NCBI GenBank assembly: GCA_013696315.1
Contig: JACCYU010000099.1
Span: 1 to 43,852 of the forward strand
Reading direction: 5' to 3'
Source: Gammaproteobacteria bacterium
Lineage (GTDB): Bacteria; Pseudomonadota; Gammaproteobacteria; JACCYU01
DNA length: 43,852 nt
A model generated the notes under the pieces. That model saw only the letters and a list, made by a program, of their open reading frames with translations. It did no database searches and was not told where the DNA came from. Made by a program: the position numbers and the translations under genes. Shown here piece by piece: positions 75 to 11,636 of this stretch (positions are counted from its first letter, which is position 1; each line of letters opens with the position of its first letter).

Positions 75-998
75 TCAAGTCCGACAGGCTGCTAGTCTGA
101 GAAATGCACGCAACGCCATGCCGATATGATTGCGTTGCGCTTTGGCCGCGCGCACCTGCGCACGCTCGACGCCGCAGAACTGCTTGATGCCACGATGATA
201 ATTCTCAATCGTCCATGCGAAGCCCGCAAAGCGGACGCGCGCCACCTCACTCATCTGCAAGTCATTGGTTGCCCACCACTCAAAGTCGCCGTCTGGGGCG
301 ACAAGCTTGAAGAGGCGAATCCAACCATAGCCTTTCAGATGCACGATACAGCCTCGCGCATCGGTCGCAATCAGCGAGACGGCGCGCAAGCCTGTCCGAT
401 CCGGGTTCACCAGCCGGTTCGACTTCAGCCGCGTCAGCCATATCCAGCCGAAATCTCGCATGGTTTTCAAGTTTTCGAGGCTAGAGTACCAACTATCAAA
501 GACGACGCAAGCGGGCTGAAAGCCGCGCTCACAGGCCGCCTGCAACATGGCCTGGAAGTGATCGTTCTTGGTCAACTCATCATTAGCTTTGTCATAGAGG
601 CGGTAGTCACAGGGTACGTGGCGATCGCCGTCCGTCCACAGCAAGGTGATCAGATTGATGCCTTCGACCACCGCTCGATGTTTGCCGGACCAATGGCGCC
701 GCACCAATGCTATTTTCTTGGCGTACGGCTTATCGAGCGTCGAATCATCAACGACGAGGATGCCTGTTGTGCGTTCGACCTGCGGCGCGGCTTCTTGCCA
801 GAGCGTCTCGGCGGCCGGTTCAAGGCGATGCAACAGGCGCGTAAAGGCGTCGTGTGCGGGCGGCGACTCCTCGACGGGCGTGGTGCGCGCCGCTTCAACG
901 CCGGAACAGACGCGCGGTGTGGCGATCAGGAAGTTGATGTAATCTTCGCAACTGACTTTGGCGGATTCATTTAGCTTCTTTACATTAGCGCAGTCCAA
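75..998 (-). mobile_element. IS701-like DDE transposase
   Basis: This 307-residue protein resembles transposases of the IS701/DDE_5 group, which cut and rejoin insertion-sequence ends. The DDE residues can be placed: the first Asp in VVDDSTLDKPYA, the second in VVFDSWYSSLEN, and the Glu in TIENYHRGIKQFCGVERAQ near the C terminus. The C-terminal part looks complete, ending in LRLAACRT and a TGA. The frame opens only at a TTG (998) with no clear ribosome binding site, so the start is uncertain and the N terminus may be slightly short. I could not identify terminal inverted repeats on either side. It stands alone at the left edge of the accessory block and is probably a past insertion. Confidence 0.85.
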
Positions 999-1550: not shown

Positions 1551-3269
1551 ATGATGTCCGACGCAAGCCGCCAGAGAAACGCAGGCGCACGTCTAACCGA
1601 ACGTTTGGGTACCGTGCCAAGGGATACAGTCTCGTATCTCAGCAATTATGCGGCCTTTCTGCTCCTGGAATTTACTGCGCTGGTTCTGCTTCTGACGAGT
1701 ATTCTATTCTTCGCAAGAATCGAAATTACGCCCTACCACGTCGCCGCGGCATTCATTGTCACGTTCCTGACACCGTTCGTCTACCGCAGCAGGCCCGAGA
1801 TACACGGCTCCGTATCTGCAGCAGCGCTTGCATCGTCCTTTGCCCTTCTGTGCATCGCCACCGTAGTGTTCTCAGGCTGTTTCTATGACTTCTCTTTCGA
1901 TGGCCAAGGTTATCGCCAGGAGGCCATTATACAATTGGCCAACGGCTGGAATCCCGTCTACGAACGGGTGCCTGAAGACGTTCAACGCAGCATCTGGATA
2001 AACCACTACTCGAAAGGACCCTGGATAACAGCGGCCGCACTGTACAAGCTCACGGGGAACATAGAACAGGGCAAGACGTTCAACCTGCTTTTGATACTCG
2101 CATCATTCTTTCTGTGTCTATCCGTATTGTTACGTATCAAGCAGATCGACGGCCGGATAGCTTTCATCTTCAGCCTGTTGCTCGCGCTGAACCCCGTCAG
2201 CGTGTATCAAACTTTAACTTTTTACATCGATGGCCAGCTCTCGTCATTGTTGGTCTGCCTGGTGGCCAGCCTAACGGCGATACTCCTCGCAGTGGACAAG
2301 CTTACTCTTGCCTCGTTGAGCTTCGTCATCTTGATCGCGCTGAACGTTAAGTTCACGGCTGTACCCTATGTTGCTTTCATCGGTCTGGGATTTATTGTGG
2401 CCGCGGCGCTCATGGGTAAGACTCGCCCGCTTCGGCGGGCAATATGGGCGAGCATTCTATGTTTTGCAGCAGGCGTGCTTGTCGTTGGCTACAATCCCTA
2501 TGTCACAAATACGCTGTATCACGGACACCCTTTCTTTCCGCTCTTTGGCGAGGGTCATGTAGACATTATGGACGGTCCTAAATCAACGCCGGTGAGCCTC
2601 AGGGGTCTGAACAGAGTAGAAAAGCTTTATCAATCGGTGTTCGCCAAATCGCAAGCTTCCCTCACCGCAGAAACCGAGTTGAAGATTCCTTTAACGGTGA
2701 CTAGCCTAGACGAGATTCGACCCTTCGGGTCGCCTAGCACGCGAATCGGCGGTTGGGGGCCGCTGTTTAGCGGTGTGCTGGTGCTGTCGGTGATTGGACT
2801 GCTGTGGACACTTGTGCGATCGCCTGCTTTGAGGAAGATCGGGCTGATTGTAATGGGCATAAGTGCGTATCTGCTCGCTTCCGCCTTGATCCACGAGGAG
2901 GGATGGTACGCGCGTTTCGCGCCGCAGTTGTACTGTATACCGGTGATTATTACCATGTTTCTGGTGAGTGTGCATGACAGAGTGGCGAACATCGTCGGTG
3001 GCATCGTGGCGGTCGCGCTGACGCTAAACATCCTCACTATTGGCGGAGTTTACCTGTACAAGAATCTCAAATGGAACTACAAGCTGGGTAATCAAATGGC
3101 GGAGCTCGCACGCGTAGATGGAGCGGTTCAAGTATATTTTGGCGATTTCCGCTCGACGCGCGTCAGATTTGAAAAGGCGATCCCTTATAAAGAGGTTAGC
3201 ACTCAGGCGGGCCTGGCCTGTAAAACCCCAATGGAGATCATACATGCCACGGCGCTTGTATGTCCCTGA
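1551..3269 (+). CDS. GT-C-like polytopic membrane glycosyltransferase
   Basis: A 572-residue integral membrane protein with about ten hydrophobic segments (for example residues 34-54, 63-80, 90-110, 180-195, 200-215, 255-285, 297-312, 405-420, 430-445 and 480-500) and a soluble C-terminal tail. After the third segment comes an acidic loop, FSFDGQGYRQEAI around residue 117, in the place where GT-C enzymes (ArnT, PMT, Emb type) carry their catalytic Asp/Glu. GT-C enzymes transfer sugars from polyprenyl-phosphate donors on the outer face of the membrane. A GGAG sequence lies 6-7 bases before the ATG pair. The HAD-UbiA gene downstream, which would make a polyprenyl-phosphate sugar, fits a donor/transferase pair. 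The acceptor is unknown. It could also be an oligosaccharide polymerase-like protein. Confidence 0.65.
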   Translation: MMSDASRQRNAGARLTERLGTVPRDTVSYLSNYAAFLLLEFTALVLLLTSILFFARIEITPYHVAAAFIVTFLTPFVYRSRPEIHGSVSAAALASSFALLCIATVVFSGCFYDFSFDGQGYRQEAIIQLANGWNPVYERVPEDVQRSIWINHYSKGPWITAAALYKLTGNIEQGKTFNLLLILASFFLCLSVLLRIKQIDGRIAFIFSLLLALNPVSVYQTLTFYIDGQLSSLLVCLVASLTAILLAVDKLTLASLSFVILIALNVKFTAVPYVAFIGLGFIVAAALMGKTRPLRRAIWASILCFAAGVLVVGYNPYVTNTLYHGHPFFPLFGEGHVDIMDGPKSTPVSLRGLNRVEKLYQSVFAKSQASLTAETELKIPLTVTSLDEIRPFGSPSTRIGGWGPLFSGVLVLSVIGLLWTLVRSPALRKIGLIVMGISAYLLASALIHEEGWYARFAPQLYCIPVIITMFLVSVHDRVANIVGGIVAVALTLNILTIGGVYLYKNLKWNYKLGNQMAELARVDGAVQVYFGDFRSTRVRFEKAIPYKEVSTQAGLACKTPMEIIHATALVCP

Positions 3270-3648
3270 CTCCGCATGATCGGATGATCTACCTTGCTCA
3301 TGTTGCAATCTCTTCTACAGACGGGGCAGAATCCATATACACAAAGATCCGCCGATCAATTGTCGATCTTCCAGCGCTGGAACGGTTGAGAACTAGCGCT
3401 AATGAACTGGCACTCGCCTAATGTCATAAAATTGAATAAGTCGTAAGCAATTACGAGACGCAGCTCGGCGCATGAGTCTCCTATGGAAAGCGTAGAGAGC
3501 CGCATCCATGTCGTTATTCCGGTAATCGTCAAGCACAGGTGCGATCGGCGTGAGTATAAGTACGGGTGACAAGGGTGTTTCACCGGATGGTCAATGGGTT
3601 AAACGCCATTCGCAAGCATCTATCGTGTAACGGCGCAGGCGACAGTGA
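3270..3648. other. intergenic with possible short glycosyltransferase remnants
   Basis: This 379-bp gap separates the GT-C-like gene from the HAD-UbiA gene. A 45-codon frame at 3284-3421 starts MIYLAHVAISSTDG, which resembles the N terminus of a GT4-type glycosyltransferase. A second small frame from 3483 contains SRIHVVIPVIV, like the start of a GT2 enzyme. Both stop quickly. They may be the decayed ends of deleted glycosyltransferase genes or chance resemblances. Confidence 0.25.
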
Positions 3649-5124
3649 ATGGAGGCAAATGTGCTGGTAACGGCTGAGACTGATGCTGGGGAGTACGAGC
3701 CAATCTGTATCGATCTGGATGGTACTTTTGTCAAGACCGACTTGATGCTTGAGATGCTGCTAAAGGCGGCGGGGCAACACTGGGCAGTCCTGCTTACGGC
3801 GCCAGTATGGCTCACTCACGGTAAGGCGTACTTTAAACAAGAGCTTGCCAAGCGCTGCACGCTGGACATCGCGCATCTTCCCTTTGACGAAGAACTGCGC
3901 TCTTATCTGAAACGTCAACGAGAGCGCGGCCACAGGCTTGTATTGGCAACTGCAGCGGACCGGAAGATTGCCGAAGCCATCGCTGCGGAAGCCGGCATCA
4001 TCGATGAAGTGATCGCCTCGGATGGGATCACCAACCTCAAAGGCGAGACCAAAGCTCGCGTTCTCGAGGATCGCTTCGGCAATCGGGGATTTATCTATGT
4101 CGGCAATGATAGGTGCGATCTTCCGATCTGGCGCAAAGCTAAAGAGGCTGTCGTGGTGAATGCCTCATCATATGTGACCCGCGCGGCCGCCGCAGCAACA
4201 ACAGTCCGTGAGACATTCGCGGCACGGGAGTCATCTCTTGTGCAGTTGCTTAAGGCCATGCGGACCTATCAGTGGGCGAAGAACATTCTTGTTTTTATTG
4301 CGCCACTGACGGCCCTGGTGCTATGGGAGCCCGCCATCGCCCTGGCTTCTTTGGTGATCTTCTTCGCTTTTTGCGCCACCGCCTCGGGTGTTTACATCAT
4401 CAACGACTTGTTGGATTTAGATAGTGATCGCCAACACCCACGTAAGCGATACCGACCCTTCGCTAGCGGTAAGCTCCCGCTCCAATATGGATTGTATGGC
4501 CCGATATTAGTATCGATTGGAATTATTTTTGGCTCGATTGTATCTAGCGAGTGCGGCTTGGCGATCGTTACTTACGCGGTTTTGTCGATCGCCTATTCCG
4601 TTTCACTCAAAAAGAAACCGCTTATCGATGTTTTCGTCCTTGCGAGCCTCTATTCTCTACGATTATTGACCGGGGGACTTGCGACCGACGTCAGTGTATC
4701 GACATGGCTCCTGAGTTTTTCGAGCTTTCTATTTCTGGCTTTAGCGTTTTTGAAGCGAACCGCAGAATTGGCGGCTCTGCGTTCAGAGGAGAAGCGGAAG
4801 GTGTCGGGACGCGGCTATGGCGCTTCTGACCTTTCAATGCTTAAAGTCATGGGCGTGGCGTGCAGTTTTGTTTCCAGCCTTGTCCTCGCGCTTTACATAG
4901 ACAGTACTACAGCTCGGACAATATACGCCAATCCGAATGTCCTTTGGGGAATCGTGCCTCTGATCCTTTTCTGGCAATGTCGGCTATGGCTGTCTACCGC
5001 TCGCGGCCGAATGCACGACGATCCGATCGTCTATGCTGCCAAGGACCGCATATCCTGGTTGATTTTTGGCTTGATCATGGTGATTTTTGGAATCGCGAAC
5101 TTAGATGGTATACCGTGGGGGTGA
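3649..5124 (+). CDS. HAD phosphatase-UbiA prenyltransferase fusion
   Basis: A 491-residue two-domain protein. Residues 15-190 form a HAD-type hydrolase: DLDGT with the nucleophile at D22/D24, LATAADRK as motif II, and GNDRCDLPIW carrying the motif IV acid. Residues 205-491 form a UbiA-type membrane prenyltransferase: a MRTYQWAKN entry motif, the Mg-diphosphate motif NDLLDLDSD at 252-260, then KRYRPFASG and about eight membrane segments. The UbiA half resembles mycobacterial Rv3806c, which joins phosphoribosyl diphosphate to decaprenyl phosphate. The HAD half could remove the 5-phosphate to give polyprenyl-phosphoryl-ribose. The next intact gene encodes a DprE1-like oxidase, the following step of that pathway, which supports this role over quinone or heme prenylation. 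The ATG is preceded by weak GTGAATGGAGG spacing. Confidence 0.85.
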   Translation: MEANVLVTAETDAGEYEPICIDLDGTFVKTDLMLEMLLKAAGQHWAVLLTAPVWLTHGKAYFKQELAKRCTLDIAHLPFDEELRSYLKRQRERGHRLVLATAADRKIAEAIAAEAGIIDEVIASDGITNLKGETKARVLEDRFGNRGFIYVGNDRCDLPIWRKAKEAVVVNASSYVTRAAAAATTVRETFAARESSLVQLLKAMRTYQWAKNILVFIAPLTALVLWEPAIALASLVIFFAFCATASGVYIINDLLDLDSDRQHPRKRYRPFASGKLPLQYGLYGPILVSIGIIFGSIVSSECGLAIVTYAVLSIAYSVSLKKKPLIDVFVLASLYSLRLLTGGLATDVSVSTWLLSFSSFLFLALAFLKRTAELAALRSEEKRKVSGRGYGASDLSMLKVMGVACSFVSSLVLALYIDSTTARTIYANPNVLWGIVPLILFWQCRLWLSTARGRMHDDPIVYAAKDRISWLIFGLIMVIFGIANLDGIPWG

Positions 5125-5199
5125 GTGTTGTCGCCACCACAGCTATCGGAGATAGCGCAGAAACTTTTATAACGACCGCGCGTTTGTTGAGCGGCCCTA

Positions 5200-5590
5200 C
5201 GGTGAGAATTTGACTGTGCGGTGCTCACTAGAGGCAGGGGCAACCCAAACTTCTCGCAAGTCTTCTTTAGTGAGCTCAAGATTCCCGAGCCTCGCTACAG
5301 CCTCGAATTCGGTTCGCTTTGCCTCGGCGCGCAGACCGGCCGCATGCTGCATGCCGTTGAGCCTTCCCCGGTTTGCGAGAAGCCGGGTTGGGTGGTTTAC
5401 GGCGGTACCAACTCCACGCTTGCCGACAGGCGCAACCTCCGCGTCGCCCCCGTTGAAGCCGGCCTGCGCTCTTGGTCTATCCTCGATCTGGTGGTCCTCG
5501 CCGGGCTCGCGGAAGAGCTGCGGAATCGGTATCGCCGTACTGTTGATCCTGTGCTTGGCGACCTAGCCCGACCACTCAAGAGCGTACGCG
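5200..5590 (+). pseudogene. wecB: UDP-GlcNAc 2-epimerase fragment
   Basis: A remnant of the N-terminal third of a WecB-type UDP-N-acetylglucosamine 2-epimerase. The frame reads FSQVFFSELKIPEPRYSL, then GAQTGRML, VVYGGTNSTLA and VEAGLRSW, matching in order the conserved sequence of the family up to the EEINR region (here AEELRNR) and a trace of SDLL (here GDLARP). The true start (VxGARPQF region) and everything after about residue 150 are missing, and GDTNST has become GGTNST. It cannot encode an active enzyme. It lies between the UbiA gene and the oxidase-aminotransferase ORF and its end overlaps the start of that ORF, suggesting that a deletion or insertion placed these genes side by side. 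Confidence 0.85.
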
Positions 5591-5596
5591 CAAGGG

Positions 5597-8488
5597 ATGA
5601 TGCACAAGGCGGTTAAGCTGCACGGCTGGGGTCGGGTCAGTGGTGGCCTGACCTCGGTTACGTTGCCGGAGACGCGCGCCGAGGCCATCGAGGCCATGCA
5701 CTCCGCCCGAGACGGCACGGCGATCGCCTTCGGGGGCGGACGCAGCTATGGCGATATGGCCCTCAATAGCCATGGCCGGGTCATCCTCACCACACAGCTG
5801 AATCGGATCCTGTCATTTGATTCCGCCAATGGAGAGGTAGTCTGCGAACCGGGCGTCACCTTTCACGAGCTCCTGCGCGAATTCCTTCCCTTCGGTTTTG
5901 CCGCGCCGGTGAGCCCCGGCACGGGCTTCGTCACCATCGGCGGGGCAGTGGCAAATGACGTGCATGGCAAGAACCACGACGTCGCCGGGAGCTTCGGGGA
6001 CCATGTCCGCTGGATCGATCTGCTGCTGCCTTGCGGGGACACCGTGCGCCTCTCACCCAAGGATCGACCCGAGTGGTTTAACGCCACGATCGGCGGCTTG
6101 GGGCTCACCGGCATCATGCTGGCGGTCTGCTTTACACTGCGGCGTGTACCCACGAACGCCGTCCGGGTCGAAGAGCGACGGATCCCTGACCTGGAAGCCT
6201 TCTTCGCGGCCTTCGAGACGGCACGCACGCGTTGCACCTATTCGGTGGCTTGGATCGACGCATTGGCCGGGGACGCTCGCCTAGGCCGCGGTATTCTAGA
6301 GACCGCAGAGCACGCCGACGCTGCGCTATCGAGGTCACCACCGCGGCGAGTAAGAGTGCCCTTCGACTTCCCCGCCGCCGCGCTCAATCCGTGGACTGTG
6401 CGCGCCTTCAACGCCCTGTACTATCGCCGGGTGCCTCCGTCAGGCCGTCGGGTCGATCGCCTGATCGACCAATTCCTCTATCCGCTCGATGCTATCCTGG
6501 ACTGGAACCGCCTGTACGGCCGGGCCGGTTTCTACCAGTTCCAGTGCGTGGTGCCCGAGGCAGACAGCCACCGGGCCATCCGGCGCCTCTTAGGGGAGGT
6601 CGCCAGCGCCCGAGCCGCCTCGTTTCTAGCCGTGCTCAAGACCCTCGGCGGCCAGAGCCAAGGACTGCTGTCGTTCCCAATGCGCGGCTACACGCTGGCG
6701 CTGGATCTCCCCAGGCGTCCAGGGACTGAGCGGCTCATCGCCCGCCTGGGCGGAATAACACTCGATTATGGCGGGCGTGTCTACCTCGCCAAGGACGCCT
6801 GCCTGCCAGGCGAGCTGTTCCAAGCCATGTATCCCAAGCTCGATCGCTTCCGCGCGGTGCTGGACGAGTTGGACCCACACGGGCGCATGAGCTCGGACCT
6901 CTCACGCCGCCTCGGGGTCCGAGGGCAACAAACTCTGTCTCCTGTAGTACTGGACAATTCAACCTTGGGCCGTTCAAATAGAAGGTGCGGGCCAATCCTT
7001 CCCGCTAGGCAAGCTATGAGCATGACTGTAACGCGAGAAAACATTAACGATCGGCAAGCGCCAGGCGGCCGGGTGGCAATTGTCAAACCTGGGCTGTTGA
7101 CCGTGGAAGATGCCAAAAAGCTGAGTGTGGCGGAGACCACCGAACTTTTTCGCGATCATGTGAACCCCGGCCAGCTCCATTTCCTCAAACTCTTGGGATT
7201 CAATGAGGTCGTCGTCGAGAGCGCCGAAGGCATGTATTACACGGATAAGCGCGGTCGCAGGATCCTCGACTTCTTCGGGGGATTCGGCTCACTCGCGCTC
7301 GGGCACAATCACCCGCACATCCTGGCGGCGCGCAAGCGATTTCAGGATGAGAAGCGCCACGAGATCGCTATCGCCTTCATGTCTCAGTACGCCAGTGCCC
7401 TATCCAAGAACCTCGCCAGCATCGCACCGGGAGACCTGGACATGGTGTTCCTCGGCTCCGCGGGCTCAGAGGCCGTCGAGGCGGCGCTCAAACTGGCGGA
7501 GAAGGTTCAGGGACCGCGACGTTCCACGGTTGCATATGCCGAGCGTTCCTTCCATGGCAAGTCGCGCGGAGCCCTGTCGGTCACCGATTCCGACTTCTAC
7601 CAGTCGACCTTCCGGCTTTTGGATAATCGTGTCCGCATTCCCTTCGGTGACGCAGCCGCACTCGAAGCGGCGCTCCAGCGCGATCATTCGATTGGTATCC
7701 TGATTCTGGAGACGGTGCAGGGCGGCGCCGGGGTCGTCCTTGCAGCTCCCGGCTACTGGCAGGAGGTTCGCCGGCTGTGCGATCGTTACAATGTGCTTTG
7801 GATCGCCGACGAAGTGCAATGCGGGGTCGGACGCACGGGCCGCTTCTTTGCGTTCGAGCACGAAGAGGTGGTGCCGGACATCGTCACGCTGGCCAAGTCG
7901 CTCGGGGGCAGCAAGGCAGCTATCGGCGCCATTATCGCCCGGCGCCCGCTCTACATGACGGCCTACGGGACGCCCAAGACCGCCCTCATCCACGGCCCGG
8001 CCACCTTTGGAGGCATGGGGGAGACCTGTTGCACCGCGATCGAGGCCCTGAACGTCCTCTACGACGAAGGGCTCATCGACAACAGCGCAACGCAAGGCGC
8101 CTACCTCCTGGAGCGGCTGCGCAGAGTACACCGCAGTTATCCACAGATCTTAAAGGAGGTGCGTGGTCAGGGACTCATGGTAGGGGTCGAGTTCCAAGAC
8201 TTCAGCCAGACCCTGCCATTCGGCCTGCGCAGCATTGTCTCCGTTCTCGACGACAAGCTCCGCGGCAGTCTGTGCGGCTTCGTCGGCAGCCTGTTGCTGA
8301 AGGACCACAATATCCTGGTGGCCTTCACCGAGTACAACCGTAACGTCATCCGGCTCGAGCCCCCGCTCATCGTTACGCGCGAGCAGATCGAGACCTTTGT
8401 GGCGGCGCTCGATGAGGTCCTCTCCCGCGGGATCACCCGCATCATTACCGACTACGCGAAGAACTTTCTGCGCAAGAGCCCTGGATAG
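5597..8488 (+). CDS. DprE1-like FAD oxidase fused to class III aminotransferase
   Basis: A 963-residue ORF with two enzymes. Residues 1-440 align with mycobacterial DprE1, which oxidises the 2'-OH of decaprenyl-phosphoryl-ribose: FAD motif AFGGGRSYGDMAL, then GGAVANDVHGKNH, SFGDHVRWIDLL, WNRLYGRAGFYQFQ and a terminal SSDLSRRLG. The active-site lysine corresponding to Lys418 is present (YLAKDA, K399); the position of Cys387 is alanine (A368). After about 33 nondescript residues, residues 474-963 form a complete class III PLP aminotransferase: FLGSAGSEAVEAA, ADEVQCGVGRTG with D738, and the PLP lysine K767 in LAKSLGG. An internal ATG at 7016 could start the second enzyme separately, but its ribosome binding site is poor and no stop intervenes. 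An AAGGG precedes the first ATG. Together the enzymes could convert a hydroxyl on a lipid-linked sugar to an amine. Confidence 0.85.
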   Translation: MMHKAVKLHGWGRVSGGLTSVTLPETRAEAIEAMHSARDGTAIAFGGGRSYGDMALNSHGRVILTTQLNRILSFDSANGEVVCEPGVTFHELLREFLPFGFAAPVSPGTGFVTIGGAVANDVHGKNHDVAGSFGDHVRWIDLLLPCGDTVRLSPKDRPEWFNATIGGLGLTGIMLAVCFTLRRVPTNAVRVEERRIPDLEAFFAAFETARTRCTYSVAWIDALAGDARLGRGILETAEHADAALSRSPPRRVRVPFDFPAAALNPWTVRAFNALYYRRVPPSGRRVDRLIDQFLYPLDAILDWNRLYGRAGFYQFQCVVPEADSHRAIRRLLGEVASARAASFLAVLKTLGGQSQGLLSFPMRGYTLALDLPRRPGTERLIARLGGITLDYGGRVYLAKDACLPGELFQAMYPKLDRFRAVLDELDPHGRMSSDLSRRLGVRGQQTLSPVVLDNSTLGRSNRRCGPILPARQAMSMTVTRENINDRQAPGGRVAIVKPGLLTVEDAKKLSVAETTELFRDHVNPGQLHFLKLLGFNEVVVESAEGMYYTDKRGRRILDFFGGFGSLALGHNHPHILAARKRFQDEKRHEIAIAFMSQYASALSKNLASIAPGDLDMVFLGSAGSEAVEAALKLAEKVQGPRRSTVAYAERSFHGKSRGALSVTDSDFYQSTFRLLDNRVRIPFGDAAALEAALQRDHSIGILILETVQGGAGVVLAAPGYWQEVRRLCDRYNVLWIADEVQCGVGRTGRFFAFEHEEVVPDIVTLAKSLGGSKAAIGAIIARRPLYMTAYGTPKTALIHGPATFGGMGETCCTAIEALNVLYDEGLIDNSATQGAYLLERLRRVHRSYPQILKEVRGQGLMVGVEFQDFSQTLPFGLRSIVSVLDDKLRGSLCGFVGSLLLKDHNILVAFTEYNRNVIRLEPPLIVTREQIETFVAALDEVLSRGITRIITDYAKNFLRKSPG

Positions 8489-8859
8489 CTCGATGACGGG
8501 CGGGGAGGCGGGCCACTAAGCCTTCAAGGGGCCTTATTCACTCCCGGAGGCATTGTCAAGCTACATCCTAAGTCCGCCATCGGTTTGGCATCCGCGCTCT
8601 GGTTCGATAATATGTTGGCGGTGCAACGCGTCAACTCGGGAGTAATAGCGCCGTTGTTCTGCGACTCGGGGATCAGCTCGAGCTCGGCGAGCGGGCGCGT
8701 ATGGGGCCCGCAGGATCATCGCAAGGCGGTTGGTCGGCGCTACTGATAAGTCGAAGAAGCGAGTTTGTCCGCGGACGCAAGCTCGCGCGCGCTCCGCATG
8801 GAACGCGCCGATGGCGCGTGTCCGGTCAGCTCAGCCACTGGAACTAGAGGTCACCTTTC
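8489..8859. other. intergenic, probable promoter region
   Basis: About 370 bp between the oxidase-aminotransferase ORF and the next gene. No frame shows family resemblance or a ribosome binding site. The distance suggests that the following two genes have their own promoter, but I could not pick a convincing one. Confidence 0.35.
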
Positions 8860-10197
8860 ATGAAGCAGCACCCTATTGTCGTCATCGGCGGCGGTTACGC
8901 CGGTTTGCTTACCGCACGACAGCTCGCGGCAGCGCAGATCCCATTTACTTTGTACGAAGCATCGAAAAACATCGCCGGTCTCGCCTCTACGTTCAAGGAT
9001 GTCGAAGGTTACAGCTACGACTTTGGGACCCATCTCATTACCAACCGGCTGGCGCAGACGCTGGGCGTCGACGCGCGATGCCGGGATGTTGAGTATTTCG
9101 GTGAAAGCGTGGTTCTCCACGGCAAGGTCTACAGCTATCCATTCGGTCTCATTACCGTCCCGAAATTCTGCTTGAGCGCACTCAAGCAGCGCTTGAGCGG
9201 CGCACCCGATGGAGCCGCGCTGGATGCTGCGGCCTGGGCCGAAGCGGCTTTCGGTCGCGACCTCGCCCGCGAGGTCGCGATTCCGCTCATGGAGAAGCTG
9301 ACAGGCGCCTCAGCCGCGGAGCTGTCGCCGACGATCAGCAATAAGCTGCCCAATGTCCTGCGGACGGTAATGCTGCGCATTGCTGGGCGTCTCTCGCGCA
9401 AGGCGGTGGCGATCGGCTACTGCCAGGATCTGCCAGAGAAGGCGAGCGTCTGGCATGCCTACCCGACAGGTGGGATCGCGATGATTTGTGAGCACCTGCT
9501 GGAAGGCATCGATGGCAATGTCAAGCTCGAATCCCCCGTCCAGAAGATTCACGTGGAGAATGGCGCTGTCGTCGGCGTCGATGTGAATGGCCAGACCCAA
9601 CCCGCTGCCGCGGTCGTCAGTACAGCACCGGTGAACGTTCTGCCGAGACTGATTTCCGGTACGGACCGCCTCGAGTACTTGAAGGAGTTTCGCTACAGCA
9701 ACATGATTTTCGTCAATTTGTTCCTCAACGGCCGAAACCTGATGCCCAACGTGGCGGTGTGGTTCCCGGAAAAACAGTATGACTTCTTCCGCGTGCAGGA
9801 GCCGCCCATCTGTCTGCCTTGGACGGCTCCCGAGGGCCAGACCTATTTCACCGTCGATATTGGCTGTCATGTAGGGGATCAACACTGGAGTGCGGATGAC
9901 GAAGCGCTCGCCGCGACGTGTCTCGACCAGCTCCAGTCCGTCGTACCCGACATCAAGTCACGTTATAGAGGCGCGCGCGTATTGCGCACTAAGATTGCTT
10001 ATCCTGTTTACCTTCTTGCCTACGAGGAAGAACGGAAGAGTTTCTCACGCGACTCCGGTCTCAAAGGTTTGTACAGTGTCGGGCGAAATGGCGAATTCGC
10101 CCATATTCTGATGGAAGACGTCTACCTCCGGACCACCCAGCGGGTCGGCAGGATGATCGAGGATCTTAACCGCATTCCCGGCCAGCGTTTCCACTGA
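8860..10197 (+). CDS. FAD-dependent amine-oxidase/PPOX-fold oxidoreductase
   Basis: A 445-residue soluble flavoprotein. The N terminus has a Rossmann dinucleotide-binding motif, VVIGGGYAGLLTARQ, followed by the acidic end of beta-2 in LYEASKNIAGLAST. YDFGTHLIT matches the second conserved flavin contact of the amine oxidase/protoporphyrinogen oxidase/UDP-galactopyranose mutase superfamily. A C-terminal GLYSVGRNGEFAHILMEDV matches the region that closes over FAD. Start choice rests on AGAGGTC about nine bases before the ATG. Homologues often occur in cell-surface sugar clusters as well as in heme and carotenoid synthesis; the neighbours here favour a sugar or lipid-linked intermediate as substrate. 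The actual substrate cannot be read from the sequence. The methyltransferase follows after 26 bp and is probably co-transcribed. Confidence 0.8.
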   Translation: MKQHPIVVIGGGYAGLLTARQLAAAQIPFTLYEASKNIAGLASTFKDVEGYSYDFGTHLITNRLAQTLGVDARCRDVEYFGESVVLHGKVYSYPFGLITVPKFCLSALKQRLSGAPDGAALDAAAWAEAAFGRDLAREVAIPLMEKLTGASAAELSPTISNKLPNVLRTVMLRIAGRLSRKAVAIGYCQDLPEKASVWHAYPTGGIAMICEHLLEGIDGNVKLESPVQKIHVENGAVVGVDVNGQTQPAAAVVSTAPVNVLPRLISGTDRLEYLKEFRYSNMIFVNLFLNGRNLMPNVAVWFPEKQYDFFRVQEPPICLPWTAPEGQTYFTVDIGCHVGDQHWSADDEALAATCLDQLQSVVPDIKSRYRGARVLRTKIAYPVYLLAYEEERKSFSRDSGLKGLYSVGRNGEFAHILMEDVYLRTTQRVGRMIEDLNRIPGQRFH

Positions 10198-10223
10198 GCG
10201 CATTCACGAAGGAGTGTAAATCT

Positions 10224-11054
10224 ATGTCCGTTGCTCAATCACGGCCGGTCCTGCTCGGATCGCGCTACCTCCCGAGCCACCAAGAAAACCGCATGAAAAA
10301 TGAGGGCGGCGTCGAGTACGCTCGCAAGTTGTTCTACGACGGCATCAATCCGAATCTAGTGTTCTTGCTGAACAATCGCTTTCTCTGGATGCAGAAATTT
10401 ATCGATCCGCAGAAAAGCTGCGGTATCGAAGTCGGCTGTGGCCAAGGATATGGCAAGGATATATTGCAGGCTAAATCATACTTACTCACCGATTGCGCAG
10501 ATCACGAATGGCTAGACGTCAAACATGTCGATGCGCTCAGCACGCCTTTTGAGAACAATGCCTTTGATTTCGTCGTCGCGTCGAACATGATTCATCATGT
10601 ACCCTTCCCGATAGTTTTCTTTAAAGAAATGCAGCGCATCCTCAAGGTGGGCGGACGAATGCTGATCCAGGATGTGAACTGTTCGCTGTTGATGCGCGTC
10701 ATGCTCCATCTCATGCGTATCGAGGGCTATTCTTACGATGTCAATGTGTTCGACCCGAACACACCGGCCAACGACACCCAAGATCTTTGGTCCGGGAACA
10801 ATGCGGTTCCCAACATGCTATTCGACGATGAGGATCGCTTCCACCGGGAAATTCCGTTCTTCCGCATTACCGATCGAGGGTGCAGTGAGGTATTGGCGTA
10901 TCTGGTGAGTGGCGGCGTTACCGCCAAAACCTTCTTTATCCCGTTGCCACGATGGGTGCTTCAGACCTTAAAATGGATCGATGATGGGTTGACAACGCTC
11001 GCGCCGCAGATCTTCGCGCTCCAGCGCCGGATAGTACTCGAGCGTGTTGCCTAG
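10224..11054 (+). CDS. class I SAM-dependent methyltransferase
   Basis: A 276-residue protein with the Methyltransf_11 fold. Motif I is GIEVGCGQGYG, the acidic loop and motif II follow at LDVKHVDALSTPF, FDFVVASNMIHHV is the post-II region and RILKVGGRMLIQDV is the motif III region. The C-terminal half (about 130 residues) is more variable and contains hydrophobic stretches near the end, so it may associate with the membrane. GAAGGAG lies nine bases before the ATG, the best ribosome binding site of the cluster. It is 26 bp after the flavoprotein gene, so the two probably form one transcript. Likely a modifying enzyme for the sugar, lipid or glycan made by this block; the target is unknown. Confidence 0.85.
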   Translation: MSVAQSRPVLLGSRYLPSHQENRMKNEGGVEYARKLFYDGINPNLVFLLNNRFLWMQKFIDPQKSCGIEVGCGQGYGKDILQAKSYLLTDCADHEWLDVKHVDALSTPFENNAFDFVVASNMIHHVPFPIVFFKEMQRILKVGGRMLIQDVNCSLLMRVMLHLMRIEGYSYDVNVFDPNTPANDTQDLWSGNNAVPNMLFDDEDRFHREIPFFRITDRGCSEVLAYLVSGGVTAKTFFIPLPRWVLQTLKWIDDGLTTLAPQIFALQRRIVLERVA

Positions 11055-11191
11055 CAATCCCGGATCGAACACGATCGCGCGTTGACAGGAAGGCTCGTCC
11101 GAGCCCGTGAGCCGTATGAAGGACCGCCGTCCGGGCGGAGAAATGCTAATGTTGAAGTAGCGGGCGACCGGAGTCAGCCGACAAGCTGTAG

Positions 11192-11226
11192 TCCTCCCAG
11201 TCCTCCCAGTCCTCCCAGTCCTCCCA
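11192..11226. repeat. 9-bp tandem repeat (about 3.9 copies)
   Basis: The unit TCCTCCCAG is repeated at 11192, 11201 and 11210, with a fourth copy ending in CAT at 11219 and a decayed fifth (TCCTCCGAG) just after. The tract lies about 65 bp upstream of the SMR-type transporter gene, in its presumed leader or promoter region. Such short tandem repeats can change copy number by slippage. The repeat is pyrimidine-rich on the plus strand, so it is anti-Shine-Dalgarno-like rather than a ribosome binding site. Confidence 0.9.
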
Positions 11227-11291
11227 TCCTCCGAGTGGCCCGTCTTCGGCGGCCGAGGTCTCTTCTTACAACCATTGAGGTGATCTAGGCC

Positions 11292-11636
11292 ATGAATGCA
11301 TGGTTTATCCTATTCTTCGTGGCGTTCATCAACAGCATAGCCGGCCTGCTGCTTAAGCAATCGCGCGTGGTCGCAGAGGGGAGTTCATTGTTCTTGCTCG
11401 TGTACTCGCCCTGGTTTATCGCGGCATGTCTATGTTACCTGGTCAATACATTTCTGTTCGCCAAGGCCCTGGATTACCTGCCAGTCTCCTTGGTCTATCC
11501 AGCCTACGCCGGAGCCGGTTTCGCGCTTATCGCCATCGCGGGCAACTACCTTTTCGGAGAGCGTTTGGGCATGCACCAGTGGCTCGGCATCGTGCTAATC
11601 GCAGCCGGTATACTGACGGCCTCTCGAGGGCAGTGA
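11292..11636 (+). CDS. SMR/EamA-type small transporter (ArnE-like)
   Basis: A 114-residue protein with four membrane helices (about residues 3-20, 33-55, 62-85 and 93-110). It resembles half-size EamA/SMR transporters, including the ArnE/ArnF subunits that flip undecaprenyl-phosphate-aminoarabinose. YPAYAGAGFALIAIAG followed by GERLGMHQWLGIVLI is the classic pattern of helices 3 and 4. A Glu in helix 1, as in EmrE (Glu14), is absent; this favours a lipid-sugar carrier over a cation/drug antiporter. Such proteins dimerise. GAGGTGATC lies upstream of the ATG. In this cluster it is the natural candidate to move the polyprenyl-phosphate sugar across the inner membrane for the GT-C-like transferase. 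That role is inferred from context. Confidence 0.75.
   Translation: MNAWFILFFVAFINSIAGLLLKQSRVVAEGSSLFLLVYSPWFIAACLCYLVNTFLFAKALDYLPVSLVYPAYAGAGFALIAIAGNYLFGERLGMHQWLGIVLIAAGILTASRGQ

Follow-up and report, generated by a model that had tools for sequence, protein, structure and literature searches.

Gene content of the cluster

The DNA analyzed here, referred to as the window, is a whole stretch of 43,852 nt (contig C99) from a gammaproteobacterial genome of 3.05 Mb in 280 contigs. It harbors the following features:

75-998, minus strand: DDE transposase, left edge of the cluster
1551-3269, plus strand: putative GT-C glycosyltransferase, 572 aa, with 10 hydrophobic segments and without a Pfam or NCBIfam match
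3649-5124, plus strand: HAD phosphatase-UbiA fusion (PF12710 and PF01040; NF006088, 573 bits)
5125-5596, plus strand: intergenic; contains a degenerate fragment of WecB (UDP-GlcNAc 2-epimerase), about 80 residues long (PF02350, E 2e-9)
5597-6931, plus strand: DprE1-like FAD oxidase domain, residues 1-445 of a fusion protein (NF053785, 405 bits)
6932-7084, plus strand: disordered linker, about residues 446-496 (pLDDT below 50 at 446-496)
7085-8488, plus strand: class III PLP aminotransferase domain, residues 497-963 of the fusion approximately (PF00202, E 5e-81)
8860-10197, plus strand: amine-oxidase-like flavoprotein, PRK07208-like (PF01593)
10224-11054, plus strand: SAM-dependent methyltransferase (PF08241/PF13489)
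11292-11636, plus strand: SMR-family membrane protein, candidate flippase (PF00893, E 1.3e-9)

The genes named in an earlier, sequence-only reading of this DNA (HAD-UbiA, the DprE1-like/aminotransferase ORF, the SMR gene and the ORF at 1551-3269) all lie where that reading had placed them. With gaps of 237-472 nt between most of its genes, the arrangement is better called a cluster than a tight operon. The WecB remnant (5221-5470), in which reading frames are broken or shifted, lies outside the pathway; together with the transposase at 75-998 it is a sign of an earlier rearrangement. Homologues of the amine-oxidase-like flavoprotein and of the methyltransferase were found in none of the fetched aminotransferase loci (see below), and on this ground both were rejected as core parts. 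In the host organism, these two proteins (8860-11054) may further modify the sugar.

A DprE1-like oxidase fused to a class III aminotransferase

Positions 5597-8488 form a single open frame of 963 aa in which a DprE1-like oxidase is joined to a class III aminotransferase. The DprE1 model NF053785 matches residues 6-440 with 405 bits, below its cut-off of 500; for comparison, the DprE1 that adjoins DprE2 in Rhizobium leguminosarum (L034) scores 411 bits on the same model. Against DprE1 of M. tuberculosis the domain scores 280 bits, and the motifs GRSYGD, VHGKNH, W, QxQ, VLK and AKD are retained. By family score and active-site motifs it is a DprE1-type FAD oxidase. AlphaFold predicts two well-folded domains (mean pLDDT 82) separated by the disordered residues 446-496, and the oxidase domain of the AF2 model reaches a TM-score of up to 0.90 by target length against M. 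tuberculosis DprE1 (Foldseek). The structure alignment of relatives was built without two plasmid rows.

That an aminotransferase shares this ORF with the DprE1-like domain, as the sequence-only reading had claimed, was confirmed by an Aminotran_3 (PF00202) match of 273 bits at approximately residues 506-945. The fold, the PLP lysine and a C-terminal-side arginine identify a class III PLP aminotransferase; the PLP lysine K767 as well as D738 and R919 are invariant in 84 sequences. The nearest solved structures are PigE (4PPM), which the AF2 domain matches, and the putrescine aminotransferase YgjG (4UOX). Open-chain aldehydes or ketones are the substrates of the best-known class III aminotransferases, and sugars are not used by the nearest characterized relatives, PigE and putrescine aminotransferase. 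In NCBIfam, the subfamily is without a specific name.

A second ORF of the same kind (956 aa, 71% identity overall to the window fusion) occurs in another gammaproteobacterial MAG (L035), and the linkers of the two fusions align poorly and show little conservation. This second fusion with a different linker ruled out an assembly artefact.

HAD-UbiA and the candidate membrane partners

The product of 3649-5124 scores 573 bits against NF006088 (cut-off 351) and consists of an N-terminal HAD phosphatase fused to UbiA, an architecture shared with ORF15 of Citrobacter. The “ArnE-like SMR” of the sequence-only reading was upheld as a member of the SMR family (PF00893), with the ArnE likeness only loosely supported: its scores for ArnE (32 bits, cut-off 92) and EmrE (39 bits) are similar and both far below the cut-offs, so that it does not classify as an ArnE/ArnF flippase. 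The SMR protein of Neorhizobium reaches 57.5 bits to ArnF (cut-off 99). The window SMR resembles those of Rhizobiales operons weakly but significantly, with 28% identity to the one from Neorhizobium. In three loci, a UPF0104/flippase-like multi-pass membrane protein is encoded directly 5′ of DprE1 (L036, 7564-8604; L037, 7618-8628; L032, 6943-7980) and perhaps serves as flippase in place of SMR.

The ORF at 1551-3269 yielded no match in Pfam, NCBIfam or a PDB profile search. Its 10 predicted hydrophobic segments and a conserved FYDxSxDGQGYxQ loop are compatible with a GT-C enzyme; an AlphaFold model from a 3-sequence alignment was unusable (pLDDT 40). Judged by topology and context, it is a probable GT-C glycosyltransferase, an assignment that we hold weakly. 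A homologue (29% identity) directly adjoins DprE2-DprE1 in another genome (G178), with UbiA nearby, which ties the family of the window candidate to pentofuranose donors. A paralogue with 59% identity lies on a short contig of the window genome itself (G000:C35:6779-8416; L126), which also encodes proteins that resemble one another in their N-terminal parts; this may hint at the acceptor. In Rhizobiales, two membrane protein families without a Pfam match adjoin the aminotransferase (represented by L104, 11420-12649, and L050, 7537-9294); they are present in 22 and 18 loci, respectively, and are candidate GT-C partners.

Related loci and gene order

Genome contigs scanned with the aminotransferase yielded 379 related stretches, and 80 loci were fetched. 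Counts out of 81 include these and the Neorhizobium plasmid locus (L031). The hosts are mostly Rhizobiales, including Mesorhizobium and Rhizobium, besides Gammaproteobacteria and a few Actinomycetota. HAD-UbiA, DprE1, SMR, an extended SDR of the epimerase family and the aminotransferase are all found in 72/81 loci, and where all five lie on the same strand they follow this order in 68 of 69 cases. The gene set proposed in the sequence-only reading was incomplete: HAD-UbiA, DprE1, SMR and aminotransferase do recur together, and the extended SDR of most relatives (75/81 loci) was missing from it. No close homologue of the extended SDR was detected in the window genome or in five others (G095, G096, G098, G099, G102), which all contain DprE1 as well as the aminotransferase; the extended SDR is an accessory component.

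Of 49 aminotransferase genomes, all possess exactly one DprE1. In two Rhizobiales genomes (L056, L065), DprE1 and the aminotransferase reside on separate contigs. In Actinomycetota (L131, L132, L114), the aminotransferase is located away from DprE1, and succinate-dehydrogenase-like genes are found nearby in L114 and L132.

Mutual exclusion of DprE2 and the aminotransferase

In mycobacteria, DprE1 oxidizes C2′ and DprE2 reduces the resulting C2′ ketone. DprE2 is absent from the block and from its surroundings in the window, and the best matches to the DprE2 family in the whole window genome score 91-95 bits; in the Rhizobiales sample, DprE2 genes reach 247-355 bits. The statement that the block lacks a DprE2-like SDR was borne out, and the genome contains no strong match either.

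An even sample of 121 Rhizobiales genomes comprised 20 with DprE1 and 101 without. Among the former, 14 carry DprE2 without the aminotransferase, six carry the aminotransferase without DprE2, and none carries both; the exact probability of such a split is 2.6e-5 if kinship is ignored. All 101 genomes without DprE1 lack DprE2 and aminotransferase alike. A first look for DprE2 was confined to the 20 or 44 best SDR candidates of each genome, and it recovered DprE2 in 14/14 DprE1 genomes without the aminotransferase. The same sample of 121 genomes ruled out a chance neighbourhood.

Co-occurrence with DprE2 in homologous clusters, which the sequence-only reading had put forward as the finding that would speak against it, was seen in none of the 80 fetched aminotransferase loci. 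One of them (L083) contains a weak SDR match (28% identity, 56 bits) at a distance of about 9 kb; this gene is no DprE2. In DprE1 loci without the aminotransferase, DprE2 directly adjoins DprE1 in 20 of 21 cases. At the level of whole genomes, no DprE2-family match above 120 bits was detected in 48 of 49 aminotransferase genomes, the exception being an actinobacterial MAG (G106) in which DprE1, DprE2 and the aminotransferase are all present. As judged from gene content, comparative genomics shows a replacement of DprE2 by the aminotransferase.

Several genomes illustrate this exchange. A gammaproteobacterial locus (L119) contains HAD-UbiA, DprE1, DprE2, SMR and the extended SDR, with DprE2 instead of the aminotransferase. 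In one Rhizobiales genome, the operon is without the aminotransferase (L136) and a lone DprE2 is found amid housekeeping genes on another contig (L137). Two Actinomycetota genomes (G380, G396) combine a canonical DprE1 with the aminotransferase and have no detectable DprE2; in G396, DprE1 lies mid-contig and is followed by another gene, and in G380 it is near the contig end, which makes the absence of DprE2 less sure.

In the DprE1 tree, the aminotransferase-linked proteins fall into two groups apart from each other, and the closest neighbours of either group are DprE2-linked proteins. A single clade of aminotransferase-linked DprE1, a grouping fixed from gene linkage ahead of any look at the tree, was rejected when enforced (AU p 1.9e-39). 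Tree topology indicates that two or more distinct lineages of DprE1 have become associated with the aminotransferase. When the window is compared with Neorhizobium, identity is 64% for the aminotransferases and 41% each for DprE1 and HAD-UbiA. The two DprE1 groups and these identities are compatible with the idea that DprE1 pathways already in place received the aminotransferase as a transferred module.

Proposed pathway and alternative explanations

In the reading that we consider likely, the block encodes the DprE-type pathway for lipid-linked pentofuranose in a variant form: a class III aminotransferase has taken the place of DprE2, and the product is an aminated lipid-linked pentofuranose. 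ORF15 of Citrobacter youngae, a HAD-UbiA protein, was shown biochemically to make polyprenyl-phosphoryl-ribofuranose with removal of the 5′-phosphate (PMC11127046), and the HAD-UbiA of the window would likewise convert PRPP into this dephosphorylated lipid. Judged by its family, the DprE1-like domain would then oxidize C2′ of polyprenyl-phosphoryl-ribose to a ketone. The fused aminotransferase, standing where DprE2 would be, would transfer an amino group, probably from glutamate, onto this ketone and yield polyprenyl-phosphoryl 2-amino-2-deoxy-pentofuranose. Both the amination at C2′ and the amino-pentose product are what we infer from sequence comparison. The SMR protein may flip the amino-pentose lipid, and a GT-C enzyme on the outer side of the membrane may move the amino-pentose to an envelope glycan; these steps, the weakest of the scheme, are plausible only. 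In most relatives the extended SDR, absent from the window genome, probably also epimerizes another carbon.

A different role of the aminotransferase has to be weighed, in which another reductase still leads to lipid-linked arabinose or ribose and the aminotransferase works at a different point, such as on the sugar once the extended SDR has carried out a second oxidation at another carbon. The C2′ chemistry of the block is, after all, inferred, and an extended SDR of the epimerase family accompanies the aminotransferase in the great majority of loci. In Citrobacter, an SDR gene decides between attachment of ribose and xylose (PMC11127046), the O2 SDR epimerase turning lipid-linked ribose into xylose. 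Yet the extended SDR is absent from at least six genomes having DprE1 and the aminotransferase, that of the window included, and is found beside DprE2 in L119, so that it was rejected as the general supplier of the ketone. The aminotransferase tracks the absence of DprE2 and not the presence of the extended SDR, and we regard this explanation as unlikely. Very improbable, in our view, is a chance neighbourhood of DprE1 and an ordinary enzyme of the polyamine or acetylornithine type, with the fusion as an accident of a lost stop codon. PigE and putrescine aminotransferase are indeed the closest solved relatives, and the linker holds a plausible internal start (ATGAGCATGACT); against this stand the linkage conserved across Rhizobiales and Gammaproteobacteria, the association that arose separately with each of two DprE1 lineages, the occurrence of another fusion in L035 and the strict exclusion of DprE2 in the Rhizobiales sample.

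We give still less credence to an HpnO-type enzyme converting ribosylhopane into aminobacteriohopanetriol. HpnO also belongs to the aminotransferases and acts on a ribose-derived group, it occurs outside the hpn cluster in Hyphomicrobiales (PMC12583986), and squalene-hopene cyclase is present in the window genome. This cyclase is, however, absent from 46/51 aminotransferase genomes, which rules out hopanoid synthesis as the general role; furthermore, the aminotransferase occurs only with DprE1 in the 121 Rhizobiales genomes and is fused to it in the window and in L035.

Returning to the aminated pentofuranose, we also lean towards the broader view that a polyprenyl-phosphate 2-amino-2-deoxy-pentofuranose pathway is widespread, that the aminotransferase module has taken over from DprE2 in two or more DprE1 lineages of Pseudomonadota and possibly in a third in Actinomycetota, and that the routes to neutral and to cationic surface pentoses part at the C2′ ketone. 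Judging from their gene sets, many soil- and plant-associated bacteria appear to make an amino-pentose on a membrane lipid.

Significance and comparison with known systems

Ribose, arabinose and xylose are the end points of the lipid-linked pentofuranose pathways known so far (PMC11127046). The enzyme families described here are known; their combination is new, and so, probably, is the product. If the scheme is true, the 2-keto lipid is turned into an amino sugar instead, a cationic pentose donor arises by a route that differs from Ara4N synthesis, and a charged sugar is placed on the cell surface in a new way. The gene set is common in Rhizobiales such as Mesorhizobium and Rhizobium; in these bacteria, the charge of the envelope could influence survival and contact with plants. 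From the scheme follows a prediction that can be tested for hundreds of genomes, and the aminotransferase subfamily without a specific NCBIfam name would gain a function. In the open-access literature, we found no published account of an aminotransferase within DprE1 or three-component pentofuranose pathways.

The mycobacterial DPA pathway (UbiA Rv3806c, phosphatase Rv3807c, DprE1, DprE2, Rv3789 and the Emb GT-C enzymes) has in common with the window a UbiA phosphoribosyltransferase, DprE1, an SMR-family candidate flippase and a GT-C enzyme, putative in the window. In contrast, the window has a class III aminotransferase for DprE2, its 5′-phosphatase is a HAD domain fused to UbiA, and its DprE1 domain scores below the NCBIfam cut-off. 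The three-component systems of C. youngae O1/O2 (ORF12-15; PMC11127046) share the HAD-UbiA synthase, and their GT-C transfer is periplasmic. They have neither DprE1 nor an aminotransferase and use a MATE flippase; aminotransferases are unmentioned in that study. In O2 the SDR epimerase sets the identity of the sugar, and the extended SDR of the window relatives may do likewise. HpnO resembles the window enzyme as a member of the aminotransferases that acts on a ribose-derived group of a lipid, but is unlinked to DprE1 and needs hopanoids.

The sequence of reactions has a parallel in neomycin-type biosynthesis (NeoQ/NeoB), where an FAD dehydrogenase oxidizes a sugar hydroxyl and a class III aminotransferase then aminates. 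In contrast to the window, this pair works on a soluble aminoglycoside, at its C6′ (an aldehyde), and its flavoprotein belongs to another family than DprE1. In the Arn pathway, the amino sugar is made on UDP by ArnA and by ArnB, an aminotransferase of the DegT/DnrJ type. Like the product proposed for the window, Ara4N is a polyprenyl-phosphate-linked amino-pentose, with an SMR-family flippase and a GT-C transferase in its pathway. The window aminotransferase, in contrast, belongs to class III and not to DegT, and the proposed amination would take place on the lipid and at C2′.
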